A stretch of DNA of 64,000 nt from Limnobacter sp. 130 (GTDB lineage: Bacteria > Pseudomonadota > Gammaproteobacteria > Burkholderiales > Burkholderiaceae_B): assembly GCF_902506325.1 (NCBI RefSeq), contig NZ_LR732330.1, positions 434,001 through 498,000 on the forward strand. The letters run 5' to 3'. The translations under genes were made by a program, and so were the position numbers. The notes below the pieces were generated by a model, which saw only the letters and a list, made by a program, of their open reading frames with translations, had not been told where the DNA came from and ran no database searches. This document shows, one piece after another, positions 12,378-15,909 of this stretch. How positions within the stretch are numbered: position 1 is the stretch's first letter; each line of letters opens with the position of its first letter.

Positions 12378-12454
<77 letters not shown>

Positions 12455-12468
12455 AAAGAAGAGTGCGA

Positions 12469-12497
12469 AATATACACCAGTGCGCTTGCGGGGGCAA
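12469..12497 (-). promoter_or_regulatory. Predicted sigma-70 promoter of tRNA-Val
   Basis: On the minus strand TTGCCC (12497-12492) and TATATT (12474-12469) are 17 bp apart, and the predicted start falls a few bases upstream of the tRNA. It lies back to back with the plus-strand promoter at 12510-12538. Confidence 0.65.
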
Positions 12498-12509
12498 GTC
12501 CAAACGCGC

Positions 12510-12538
12510 TTGACAAGACTTCTGACAAGAACTATTGT
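12510..12538 (+). promoter_or_regulatory. Predicted sigma-70 promoter of the small membrane protein gene
   Basis: A perfect TTGACA (12510-12515) and TATTGT (12533-12538) are 17 bp apart. The predicted start near 12545 gives a leader of about 38 nt and supports the ATG at 12583 over the upstream start at 12535, which would lie before the transcript begins. Confidence 0.6.
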
Positions 12539-12582
12539 CATATTCAATTTTTCAAGACCTCCCTCACCCACAAGGAAAGCAA

Positions 12583-12852
12583 ATGGCCATTAAAGTCAGC
12601 CCTCAATCGTTTGAATCCATGCGCAAAGTCATGAACGGCTTCTGGATTGTGGTTCCAGCCTATTTGCTGATTAGCCTGGTCATGCCTTTCCTGTTGGTGC
12701 TGGCCGCTTTGCTGCTGGTGGCGCACACGCTGGAATTGCCAATTGCCTTCTTGCGACTGCGCGGTAAAAACTTGCCAACCATGGAAGTGGTGTCAAAAAC
12801 CCTGCTGTATGGCTTCACCTGGTGGCTGCCGAAAAGCCTGGAAGCAAAATAA
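12583..12852 (+). CDS. Small membrane protein of unknown function upstream of plcP
   Basis: From ATG 12583 (ribosome binding site aaggaa at 12571-12576) the protein has 89 residues. A long hydrophobic stretch at about residues 19-50, from GFWIVVPAYLLISLVMPFLL through the next dozen residues, could cross the membrane once as a long helix or twice as a hairpin. The C-terminal part, with KTLLYGFTWWLPKSLEAK, is amphipathic and probably cytoplasmic. I recognise no named family. It is followed after 34 bp by the PHO-box repeats of the plcP-agt operon, so it appears to be a separate transcription unit with read-through possible. Confidence 0.7.
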   Translation: MAIKVSPQSFESMRKVMNGFWIVVPAYLLISLVMPFLLVLAALLLVAHTLELPIAFLRLRGKNLPTMEVVSKTLLYGFTWWLPKSLEAK

Positions 12853-12886
12853 AACCAGTCACATTGCTGTTTATGGCTCGGGGTTT

Positions 12887-12942
12887 TTGTCAAAAAAGAG
12901 TCATATAACTGTCACAAGGTAGTCAAATCGAGCGCGTTTAAT
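12887..12942 (+). promoter_or_regulatory. PHO box (four in-phase repeats) and -10 of the plcP-agt operon
   Basis: Four 7-bp repeats, TTGTCAA (12887), GAGTCAT (12898), CTGTCAC (12909) and TAGTCAA (12920), are each separated by exactly 4 bp. This is the 11-bp period of PhoB sites (consensus CTGTCAT repeated). The last repeat ends at 12926, and 10 bp later comes TTTAAT (12937-12942) as a -10 element, the standard geometry in which the PHO box replaces the -35. The predicted start is near 12949. This implies induction of the following genes by phosphate starvation through PhoB. Confidence 0.85.
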
Positions 12943-12972
12943 GGGGCCATGACAAGAACATGGACATTAAAA

Positions 12973-13902
12973 ATGCGCTCGAACCAGTTGAATTTCAAGC
13001 AGCAACTTGCCGAACAACTGTTTGCGAAAGCGACAACTGAAGAACATTCCCTCAATGCAGCGGCATCCGCAGTTTCTCAGGGTTCCGACCCCGTCGACCC
13101 TGCTTCTGAGGAACAAGGTTCCAACAAATACCGCACCATCTGGATTTCAGACATTCACTTGGGCACGCCCGGTTGCCAGGCCGACGCCCTGCTCCACTTC
13201 CTGAAACACAATGAAAGCGACACGCTGTACCTGGTCGGGGACATTATTGACGGCTGGCAATTGCGCAAAAGCTGGTTTTGGCCGCAAAGCCACAACGATG
13301 TCATTCAGAAAGTGTTGCGCAAAGCGCGCAAGGGCACGCAAGTGGTGTTTATTCCCGGCAACCACGATGAAGCCGCGCGCCAGTTTGCAGGCATGACCTT
13401 TGGCGATATTCCGATTATGGAAAATGCGGTGCACGTCACTGCAGACGGCAAACGTTTGTGGGTAGTGCATGGAGATGAATTTGATCAGGTGGTGCGCTAC
13501 GCCAAGTGGCTGGCCTACCTGGGCGACACGCTGTACACCTTCGCTTTGACCATGAACCGAATGCTGAACAACATTCGAATCAAGCTGGGTTACCCGTACT
13601 GGTCGCTGTCCCAGTTCTTGAAGCAGCAGGTCAAGAACGCGGTGAACTTCATTCTCGAGTTTGAGCATGCTCTGATACATGAAGCCAAACACCGCGGCTA
13701 CGACGGTGTTGTGTGTGGCCATATTCACAAAGCCGAGATTAAAGAAGTCGACGGCTTGTTGTACTGCAACGATGGCGACTGGGTGGAAAGCCTGACCGCC
13801 CTGGTTGAACACCCTTGCGGCAAACTGGACATTGTTCACTGGCCACACCGTGACCTGCCGGTTCGCAAACAAAAAGCGCTTGCGCACACAGCAGCGGAGT
13901 GA
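12973..13902 (+). CDS. plcP: PlcP-like phospholipase C / COG2908 metallophosphoesterase
   Basis: The calcineurin-like metallophosphoesterase motifs are all visible: SDIHLG, GDIIDGW, GNHDE, VVHGDEFD and CGHIHKAE. The block YWSLSQFLKQQVKNAVNFI, here with a GYP lead-in, is typical of PlcP-type members rather than LpxH. PlcP removes phospholipid head groups to give diacylglycerol under phosphate limitation. A hydrophilic N-terminal extension of about 50 residues precedes the domain and is longer than usual. ATG 12973 is preferred because ATG 12949 coincides with the predicted transcription start. Only 6 bp separate it from the glycosyltransferase. An LpxH-like lipid A role is the alternative, but the PHO box and neighbour favour PlcP. 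Confidence 0.85.
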   Translation: MRSNQLNFKQQLAEQLFAKATTEEHSLNAAASAVSQGSDPVDPASEEQGSNKYRTIWISDIHLGTPGCQADALLHFLKHNESDTLYLVGDIIDGWQLRKSWFWPQSHNDVIQKVLRKARKGTQVVFIPGNHDEAARQFAGMTFGDIPIMENAVHVTADGKRLWVVHGDEFDQVVRYAKWLAYLGDTLYTFALTMNRMLNNIRIKLGYPYWSLSQFLKQQVKNAVNFILEFEHALIHEAKHRGYDGVVCGHIHKAEIKEVDGLLYCNDGDWVESLTALVEHPCGKLDIVHWPHRDLPVRKQKALAHTAAE

Positions 13903-13908
13903 ACCACC

Positions 13909-15048
13909 ATGCGAATTCTGATAGCAACTGATGCCTGGGCACCACAAGTCAACGGTGTGGTACAAACGCTCAGCCAGGTGGTAGAACAGCTCACTGCCCG
14001 CGGCCACGACGTGCGGGTGATTCACCCTGGTTTGTTCAAAACCATTCCTTGCCCCACCTACCCTGAAATTCGCTTGGCCCTGTGGCCTTTCACCCGCCTG
14101 CGCACTGAACTCGACCAGTTTAAACCGCAGGCCGTGCACATTGTGACCGAAGGGCCCATCGGCTTGGCCATGCGTTTGCTGGCCCATGGCCGCAAGTTGC
14201 CCTTTACCACTGCGTACCACACGCAGTTTCCCGAGTATGTCAAAGCGAGGTCGGGCATTCCCATTCGCTTTACTGCCGCACTGTTGCGGTGGTTCCACAA
14301 GCCCTCCCGCGCAGTCATGGTGCCCACCCAATCAGTAATCACCACGTTGAAAAAGCGTGGTTTATCCAACTGCGTGCTGTGGCAACGGGGTGTGGATTTG
14401 AAACGCTTCAATCCCGATCAATCGGCCGCCAGCAAGCACCTAAGTTACAGCCCGCGCGATTTGCCTCAAGATGACGCGCAACAAGTAGAACTGCTGCGTC
14501 GACTGAATGAACTCACGGATGAAAAACCGGTGTTTCTGTACGCGGGTCGAGTGGCTGTGGAAAAAAACCTGGAGGCTTTTTTAAGTCTTGAATTGCCCGG
14601 CGAGAAGTGGATTGCTGGTGATGGACCCGCCCGCAAAGCGCTTCAAAGGCAGTTTCCCGAGGCCAAGTGGTTTGGCATGTTGAACCATGCTGCCTTGTCT
14701 GAATTGTACAAACGTGCTGACGTGTTTGTCTTTCCCAGCCTGACCGACACGTTTGGATTGGTGCTGCTTGAGGCCATGGCCAGTGGCTGCCCCGTGGCGG
14801 CCTTCCCCGTGAACGGGCCGCTGGATGTAGTAGGCAGTTCCGGTGCTGGCGTGCTGGACTGGAACCTGAAAACAGCCGCCATGGCCGCATTGAGAATTGA
14901 ACGAAATGCGCCACTGAAACACGCCAGCACTTTTACCTGGGAAAACTGTGCTGAGCAGTTTCAAGGTTATTTGGCCCCAATTGGACTGGGCAACCTTGCT
15001 CCCAAGAAGCTGCCGGGCAACCCCAAACCTTTGTCCAACCGCCCCTGA
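13909..15048 (+). CDS. GT4-family glycosyltransferase, Agt-like (glycolipid synthesis)
   Basis: This 379-residue GT-B glycosyltransferase starts with DAWAPQVNGVVQTLSQVVEQ, has a middle YAGRVAVEKNLEAFL segment, and carries the C-terminal donor-binding stretch VFVFPSLTDTFGLVLLEAMA with the EX7E-type motif. Relatives (PimB/MgtA/SqdX type) transfer sugars to lipids. In marine heterotrophic bacteria a gene of this kind (agt) next to plcP makes monoglucosyl- or glucuronosyl-diacylglycerol from the diacylglycerol that PlcP releases. The sugar donor cannot be read from sequence. It follows plcP by 6 bp with an AGCGGAG ribosome binding site inside the plcP end. Confidence 0.85.
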   Translation: MRILIATDAWAPQVNGVVQTLSQVVEQLTARGHDVRVIHPGLFKTIPCPTYPEIRLALWPFTRLRTELDQFKPQAVHIVTEGPIGLAMRLLAHGRKLPFTTAYHTQFPEYVKARSGIPIRFTAALLRWFHKPSRAVMVPTQSVITTLKKRGLSNCVLWQRGVDLKRFNPDQSAASKHLSYSPRDLPQDDAQQVELLRRLNELTDEKPVFLYAGRVAVEKNLEAFLSLELPGEKWIAGDGPARKALQRQFPEAKWFGMLNHAALSELYKRADVFVFPSLTDTFGLVLLEAMASGCPVAAFPVNGPLDVVGSSGAGVLDWNLKTAAMAALRIERNAPLKHASTFTWENCAEQFQGYLAPIGLGNLAPKKLPGNPKPLSNRP

Positions 15049-15067
15049 AGTCGATTGCCCTGTGAAT

Positions 15068-15082
15068 TGCCTATAATAGGCA
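15068..15082 (+). promoter_or_regulatory. fabI -10 region overlapped by a 15-bp palindrome
   Basis: A perfect TATAAT (15072-15077) lies inside the perfect palindrome TGCCTAT-A-ATAGGCA. No good -35 is found at 16-18 bp (15049-15054 reads AGTCGA). The palindrome is positioned to act as a repressor operator, or as a helper site for a weak promoter. Confidence 0.5.
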
Positions 15083-15123
15083 CAAAATGAAAACTCAAAA
15101 CCTATTCTCGGGAGCAATACAAA

Positions 15124-15909
15124 TTGGGATTCCTAGCCGGTAAAAAAATTCTGATCACAGGCCTGCTGTCAAACCGTTCAATCGCTTACGGTATTGCCAA
15201 GGCCTGCCATGCGCAGGGGGCTGAACTGGCCTTCACTTACCAAACCGAACGCTTTATCGACCGTGTAACCGACATGGCTGCCGAGTTTGACTCCAAGTTG
15301 GTGTTTCCTTTGGATGTGGCTGAAGACGCTCAAATTGAAAGCCTGTTTGCCGAACTGAGCAAGCAATGGGATGGTCTGGATGGTTTGGTACACGCCATTG
15401 GCTTTGCACCACGCGAAGCCATTGCAGGTGACTTTCTGGAAGGTATTTCACGCGACGCGTTCCGCATTGCGCACGATATTTCTGCCTACAGTTTTCCGGC
15501 ACTGGCCAAGGCTGCCTACCCCATGATGCAGGGCCGCGAAGGCGCATTGCTTACGCTGAGCTATCTGGGTTCGGTGCGCATGGTGCCCAACTACAACACA
15601 ATGGGTTTGGCCAAAGCATCGCTGGAAGCATCTGTTCGCTACCTGGCTGAATCACTGGGCCCCAAAGGCATTCGCGTCAACGGTATTTCGGCTGGCCCCA
15701 TCAAAACACTGGCTGCCGCTGGCATTAAGGGCTTTAGCAAAATTTTGCACGCCGTGGAAGACGCGGCCCCACTGCGTCGCAACGTGACCATTGACGATGT
15801 GGGCAACGCCGCTGCCTTCATGTTGTCTGATTTGGCGCGTGGCATTACTGCTGAAATTACCTATGTGGACGCGGGCTACAGCACGGTTGTAGGTGGCATG
15901 GCAGAATAA
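15124..15909 (+). CDS. fabI: Enoyl-[acyl-carrier-protein] reductase (NADH), TTG start
   Basis: This 261-residue short-chain dehydrogenase reduces trans-2-enoyl-ACP in the last step of fatty acid elongation. The N-terminus [20 protein letters not shown] is diagnostic of FabI, and the catalytic Tyr-x6-Lys lies in [31 protein letters not shown] follows in the substrate loop. The start is TTG at 15124 with GGGAG nine bases upstream; no ATG precedes the conserved N-terminus. Length matches E. coli FabI (262). It follows the lipid-remodelling cassette but has its own promoter region. Confidence 0.97.

Follow-up and report, generated by a model that had tools for sequence, protein, structure and literature searches.

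A probable PhoB-controlled plcP-agt operon for membrane lipid remodelling in Limnobacter sp. 130

Introduction

Membrane lipid remodelling by PlcP and Agt has been described in several reports (PMC4796936, PMC8528852, PMC9239053 and PMC8231724), and the described hosts of the pathway include marine bacteria, Agrobacterium, Sinorhizobium, a methanotroph and Pseudomonas. The closest precedent is the plcP-agt1 cassette of P. aeruginosa, which has been established experimentally and is preceded by a Pho box (PMC8528852). In marine isolates, an agt-like gene is the commonest neighbour of plcP, and putative Pho boxes have been reported (PMC4796936). The motifs GRVAxEKN and FPSxTDTFG are common to the GTcp/Agt group of transferases, and the replacement of His104, Asp256 or several donor-site residues abolished all or nearly all activity (PMC8231724). 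A study devoted to plcP in betaproteobacteria or Burkholderia was not found in our search of mainly open-licence literature. A phosphorus-stress study of Burkholderia cenocepacia is cited by PMC8528852, and the available part of PMC13086504, on a Baltic metatranscriptome, mentions Betaproteobacteria and assigns plcP to other groups, with no mention there of a betaproteobacterial plcP-agt operon.

In the present study, we analysed a stretch of 64,000 nucleotides from Limnobacter sp. 130 (hereafter the window), in which a first-pass annotation had proposed membrane remodelling under PhoB control. The precedents named for this proposal were Sinorhizobium and marine heterotrophs; the closest one, P. 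aeruginosa plcP-agt1 with its Pho box (PMC8528852), was not among them.

Results

The first gene, plcP, is placed here at 12949..13902 on the forward strand (alternative start 12973) and encodes a metallophosphoesterase of the phospholipase C type, assigned by Pfam and by trees. The reading frame had been given as 12973-13902; its end was correct, and its start perhaps was not, because an additional in-frame ATG is present at 12949, 6 nt past the -10 hexamer. A gap of 6-8 nt between the -10 hexamer and the ATG is kept in 13 of the 14 genus loci (counted by eye), so that PlcP is possibly 317 aa long. Judged from the same distance, the plcP mRNA is possibly leaderless, beginning at its ATG. Just upstream, on the same strand, a hydrophobic ORF of 89 aa (12583-12852) was observed, which neither Pfam nor NCBIfam matched; most congeners, though not G014 or G015, have the end of this ORF upstream of plcP.

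Pfam detected Metallophos and Metallophos_2 in the first protein, and the metal-site motif residues SDxHLG, GDxxDGW, GNHDE, HGD and GHIH were invariant in 27 aligned sequences. The gene might be read as an LpxH-type UDP-2,3-diacylglucosamine hydrolase of lipid A synthesis, with the glycosyltransferase serving LPS or exopolysaccharide. Indeed, the best solved-structure matches of the protein are LpxH (E 2.4e-4), and, as had been predicted for automatic annotation, the name UDP-2,3-diacylglucosamine diphosphatase stands on 20 of the 25 listed plasmid-record homologues, the remaining 5 being without a listed feature. However, the NCBIfam LpxH models scored far under their cut-offs (NF003743, 45.3 vs 134 bits; TIGR01854, 29.4-31.9 vs 190.35 bits), and the genome has one separate gene above both cut-offs (C1:530065-530775; 203.8 bits vs 190.35), a true LpxH with which PlcP shares 24% identity across 120 aa. 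An LpxH-family gene above the TIGR01854 cut-off was likewise detected in 31 of the 37 PlcP-bearing genomes searched; among the other six, the congener G014 was just under the cut-off (184.3 bits), G472, G343 and G445 of the same phylum had weak matches only, and this TIGR01854 search found no LpxH-family gene in G037 and G390. In a tree of 110 PlcP and 29 LpxH rows, the two groups were split at 100% SH-aLRT, with a warning of long LpxH branches. A second, smaller tree comprised 37 PlcP sequences, among them named homologues from P. aeruginosa, S. meliloti and Mitsuaria, and 8 LpxH sequences. Here the split was 100/100, with a bootstrap not fully settled, and the window's genus fell on the PlcP side together with PlcP of P. 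aeruginosa and of S. meliloti. The first protein thus groups with PlcP and apart from LpxH in both trees, as had been claimed. The LpxH reading, largely contradicted already, was rejected on the sub-cut-off scores, the separate LpxH and the full-support trees, and we regard it as most improbable. The window's PlcP has 54.2% identity with the P. aeruginosa homologue and 52.6% with that of S. meliloti; these two have 46.6% mutual identity, against 46% printed in PMC8528852, and we infer from this agreement that they are the characterised PlcP orthologues. PlcP is predicted to release diacylglycerol from phospholipids.

Upstream of plcP, four PhoB-type half-sites, equivalent to two tandem Pho boxes, were observed at 12887..12926 on the forward strand. 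Read directly, the 7-mers are TTGTCAA (12887), GAGTCAT (12898), CTGTCAC (12909) and TAGTCAA (12920), and their GTCA cores at 12889, 12900, 12911 and 12922 keep an exact 11-bp period. The last half-site is spaced exactly 10 bp (12927-12936) from TTTAAT (12937..12942, forward strand), which is likely the -10 hexamer. The repeats, their spacing, TTTAAT, the gene pair and its 6-bp gap had all been given correctly to the base. The region has the CTGTCAT-like direct repeats, the 11-bp period and the 10 bp to a -10 hexamer that are expected of a Pho regulon promoter. From the GTCA frequency of the window, 7.6e-6 four-core arrays of 11-bp period are expected by chance per strand, and one was found; at the other 15 periods in the range 6-21, the window held not even a three-core GTCA array. 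Compared with dinucleotide shuffles, the 250 bp upstream of plcP gave p = 0.001, the minimum attainable with 1000 shuffles. A sigma-70 consensus scan returned three promoter-like sites, against a mean of 1.4 in shuffles, and four terminator-like sites, against 4.7; the plcP promoter was absent from its list, as expected if PhoB stands in for the -35 element. Except for a partial tRNA at 12400-12454, no RNA element above threshold was found in 12400-15300.

The whole genome (3,275,637 bases in 6 contigs, 99.83% complete) was also scanned. The plcP site alone has an exact four-core GTCA array, followed by the pstC promoter with one mismatch; at up to three mismatches, the hits were at chance level (21 vs 28 in the control). 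With three TGTCA blocks and at most one mismatch, only pstC (0) and plcP (1) were recovered. At two mismatches, phoB, ugd and six other sites appeared, four of the latter having been examined and lying away from recognised Pho genes; at three mismatches, the scan was near chance (66 hits vs 47 in the control). The PhoB, PhoR, PstC and PstS proteins of the genome exceed the NCBIfam cut-offs. The arrays before phoB and pstC are like that of plcP in kind and spacing, including the 10-bp gap between the last half-site and the hexamer (TACTTT at phoB and TACCCT at pstC).

Even with PlcP correctly named, the repeats might serve another OmpR-type response regulator or be no working promoter element, as the site is a putative PhoB site read from sequence. 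OmpR-family regulators have direct-repeat sites in common, which would fit a regulator other than PhoB. Against this, the same kind of array with the same gap precedes phoB and pstC, and no array site in the genome ranks above those of pstC and plcP. In addition, the half-sites match the published Pho box CTGTCATNNNNCTGTCAT (PMC8528852). We therefore consider another regulator, or a non-functional array, improbable, and the claim of a PhoB-type array is upheld: the array exists, its type is conserved, and this type recurs at phoB and pstC within the genome.

Conservation of the promoter was surveyed by comparing the best half-site pair at 11 bp with 200 dinucleotide shuffles in 170 of 173 loci, with L087 (upstream too short) and L142 and L177 (no motif found) left out; a stretch within plcP was used as the coding control. 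At p<=0.05, a Pho-box-like pair was detected in 14/14 genus, 39/53 other order, 46/79 named (the best of at least 585) and 10/24 farther loci, against 5/14, 0/53, 1/79 and 2/24 in the coding control. At p<=0.01, the counts were 13/14, 21/53, 31/79 (again the best of at least 585) and 5/24, against none in all four control sets; the sets have lineages in common (one contig or more, such as L025/L176, seems to occur in both of two sets) and are therefore not independent. No signal at p<=0.05 was detected in 14/53 order, 33/79 named (best of at least 585) and 14/24 farther loci. Within the genus, only 10 of the 14 loci had four exact GTCA cores, whereas L019 and L021 had three, and L022 and L024 two; tight, strong control through four repeats, as had been suggested, is conjectural. 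The 10-bp gap and a -10-like hexamer accompanied the short distance to the ATG in 13 of these loci by eye, with L024 as the exception, and the sequence further upstream of the array was variable. Several record labels look doubtful, namely L176 (CAMDGF010000010.1), a 'Klebsiella pneumoniae' MAG contig equal in length to C10, a contig of G024, which is an order-level relative; L290 (CP090106.1), a 'pSymB' of 3.7 Mb; and L289 (NZ_CP137508.1), a P. aeruginosa 'plasmid' with plcP-agt amid chromosomal-looking genes.

Several loci other than plcP-agt were observed alongside the survey. An OlsB-like (ornithine-lipid type) acyltransferase gene is often found upstream of plcP (e.g. L125:3370-4137); it was present in the flank of 27 of the best 80 of at least 585 named loci, and directly before plcP in 20 of these. 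Its name is tentative, as one such protein scored 159 bits against the OlsB equivalog cut-off of 320; Pfam detected Acetyltransf_5. A signal before plcP was detected in 0 of the 20 named loci in which the OlsB-like gene immediately precedes plcP and in 46 of the 59 others (best of at least 585), and those 20 loci had a pair signal before olsB in 10 at p<=0.05 and in 4 at p<=0.01. This suggests putative olsB-plcP operons with the Pho box before olsB. The genome's own OlsB-like gene (G000:C1:750940-751644, L253) has a four-core array with three mismatches upstream, and Pho control of this gene is not claimed because that level equals chance. A near-perfect Pho box, CTGTCACAAAACTGTCAT, lies at G000:C6:205437-205454 (L002), and a Porin_4 gene, a candidate phosphate-induced porin, follows approximately 250 bp downstream. 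The Pst operon (G000:C3:1488000-1496000, L128) has the order pstC-pstA-pstB-pstS, with pstS last and the Pho array before pstC, and adjoins LMWPc- and MIP-family genes.

The plcP gene was found in 13 of 15 genus relatives, the two without it being 85% and 65% complete. PlcP was detected in 155 of 300 order-level genomes (E 1e-40, own genome counted) and in 183 of 396 at the phylum level. The 93 distinct plcP loci compared are best matches and not an even sample; in these, an agt on the same strand with at least 40% identity followed plcP in 14/14 genus, 37/54 other order and 20/25 farther (class or phylum) loci. Since an adjacent agt is absent in 17/54 order and 5/25 farther loci, plcP is not tied to agt. 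In the scan of named records, which returned at least 585 relatives, the flanks of the best 80 contained an agt-like match (identity 38% or higher, either strand) in 52, and a ugd-like match in 4, two of them above 50% identity. In Mitsuaria sp. 7 (L291, NZ_CP011515.1), plcP lies directly 5' of ppk1, encoding polyphosphate kinase, and not of agt.

The second gene, agt (13909..15048, forward strand), begins 6 bp after plcP and encodes a GT4 glycosyltransferase of 379 aa, assigned by Pfam (Glyco_transf_4 and Glycos_transf_1) and by motifs; among the 25 NCBIfam matches listed, none was above cut-off. The Agt motifs are present as GRVAVEKN (213-220) and FPSLTDTFG (275-283), with Asp replacing the Glu of MshA, and G16, G82, G85 and the catalytic H104 have numbering identical to that of GTcp (PMC8231724). 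Across 71 adjacent Agts, the window's included, GR[VIL][AS]xEKN was present in 67 and FPSxTDTFG in 62; those without the latter include a subgroup within the order that has SETFG, as well as pseudomonad-like proteins with TDTLG or TDTYG. The window's Agt is 45% identical to the P. aeruginosa glycosyltransferase encoded after its plcP. The genome contains no second close Agt, the four other matches being at E 2e-8 or weaker. Agt is predicted to glycosylate diacylglycerol with glucose and/or glucuronic acid.

A further observation concerns the sugar donor. A conserved Pho-box-like array was found upstream of ugd (UDP-glucose 6-dehydrogenase; G000:C2:12363-13778; L114, L098), composed of CTGTCAC, CAGTCTT, CTGTCAA and AGGCAAC separated by aatc, aaat and acgc. 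Compared with shuffles, it gave p = 0.001 for three sites and p = 0.009 for two. The array was recognisable in 10 of 10 genus loci with readable upstream sequence, own included (an eleventh, L101, has an incomplete upstream and was left out); with 300 shuffles, these gave p 0.0033-0.01 for three sites and 0.01-0.19 for two. Conservation extends over the whole stretch between this array and the ATG and is thus not confined to the array itself, and the -10 hexamer read there, CACACT, is weak. Since ugd and phoB, at two mismatches, score like six other sites in the three-block scan, ugd is singled out by conservation and not by its array. In the congener G015 (L113:3921-7284), the order is plcP-agt-ugd, with 4-nt overlaps. 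Taken together, it is possible, with somewhat less than an even chance, that PhoB in this genus controls both the remodelling pair and the donor supply through ugd, and that the single Agt makes GADG in replacement of an anionic phospholipid. A bacterial paper on Pho-controlled ugd in lipid remodelling was not found in the open-licence literature. Alternatively, Agt might yield a neutral monoglucosyl lipid only, with ugd unrelated, as P. aeruginosa Agt1, likewise encoded after plcP, takes UDP-glucose alone (PMC8528852); moreover, at 1e-100 no ugd match was obtained in G004 and G014, two congeners that have plcP-agt. This alternative is a serious one, though less likely than not. Against it, the window's Agt has TDTFG, as does GTcp, an enzyme of broad donor use, whereas TDTYG is found in the P. 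aeruginosa protein; the window's Agt is the sole close one of its genome; and ugd has its conserved Pho-box-like array and follows plcP-agt in G015.

Discussion

Both gene families, the cassette, and the promoter array with its conservation are established at the level of sequence, and we are highly confident that plcP and agt form an operon under PhoB control that serves to remodel the membrane lipids, with PhoB binding and the enzyme activities as its predicted parts. The PlcP grouping, the separate LpxH and the PhoB-type array all bear out the original reading of membrane remodelling on sequence tests. Herein, we propose the following course. When phosphate is scarce, phosphorylated PhoB would occupy the tandem half-sites in place of a -35 element, and transcription would start from TTTAAT. 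PlcP would then remove the phosphorylated head group of phospholipids to leave diacylglycerol, to which Agt would add a sugar from UDP-glucose and/or UDP-glucuronic acid, forming MGDG and/or GADG. The net effect would be the sparing of phosphate, with sugar replacing phosphate in the membrane lipids.

Because plcP-agt with a Pho box has already been described in P. aeruginosa and PlcP is present in 155 of 300 order genomes, the system itself is known, and the locus is an ordinary example of a widespread system with a possible regulatory extension to ugd. The results extend this phosphate-sparing lipid pathway to the window's genus, and about half of the sampled order genomes have PlcP, a trait that the usual database name of the protein conceals. 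The ugd link offers a testable idea of the glycolipid made.

Among the known systems, plcP-agt1 of P. aeruginosa (PA3219-PA3218; PMC8528852) has the same gene order and, like the window, a Pho box before plcP, and the P. aeruginosa pair compared is 54% (PlcP) and 45% (Agt) identical to that of the window. The two loci differ in that plcP and agt are 6 bp apart in the window and overlap by 4 nt in P. aeruginosa, the window has four half-sites, and GADG is the product of an additional transferase, Agt2, in P. aeruginosa (PMC8528852), whereas the window's genome has one Agt. PlcP of Sinorhizobium meliloti and Phaeobacter MED193 (PMC4796936) belongs to the PlcP clade, the S. meliloti homologue being 53% identical; in the S. 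meliloti record, with an incomplete gene table, the next listed gene after plcP is an MFS transporter and not agt. LpxH (COG2908, TIGR01854) has the calcineurin-type metallophosphoesterase family in common with PlcP. Finally, GTcp of Candidatus Pelagibacter HTCC7211 and the Agt of Agrobacterium tumefaciens (PMC8231724) share with the window's Agt the motifs, His104 and Gly16/82/85, although the window's protein has 379 aa against 334, with approximately 24 extra residues before the UDP-sugar motif as judged from the numbering shift.
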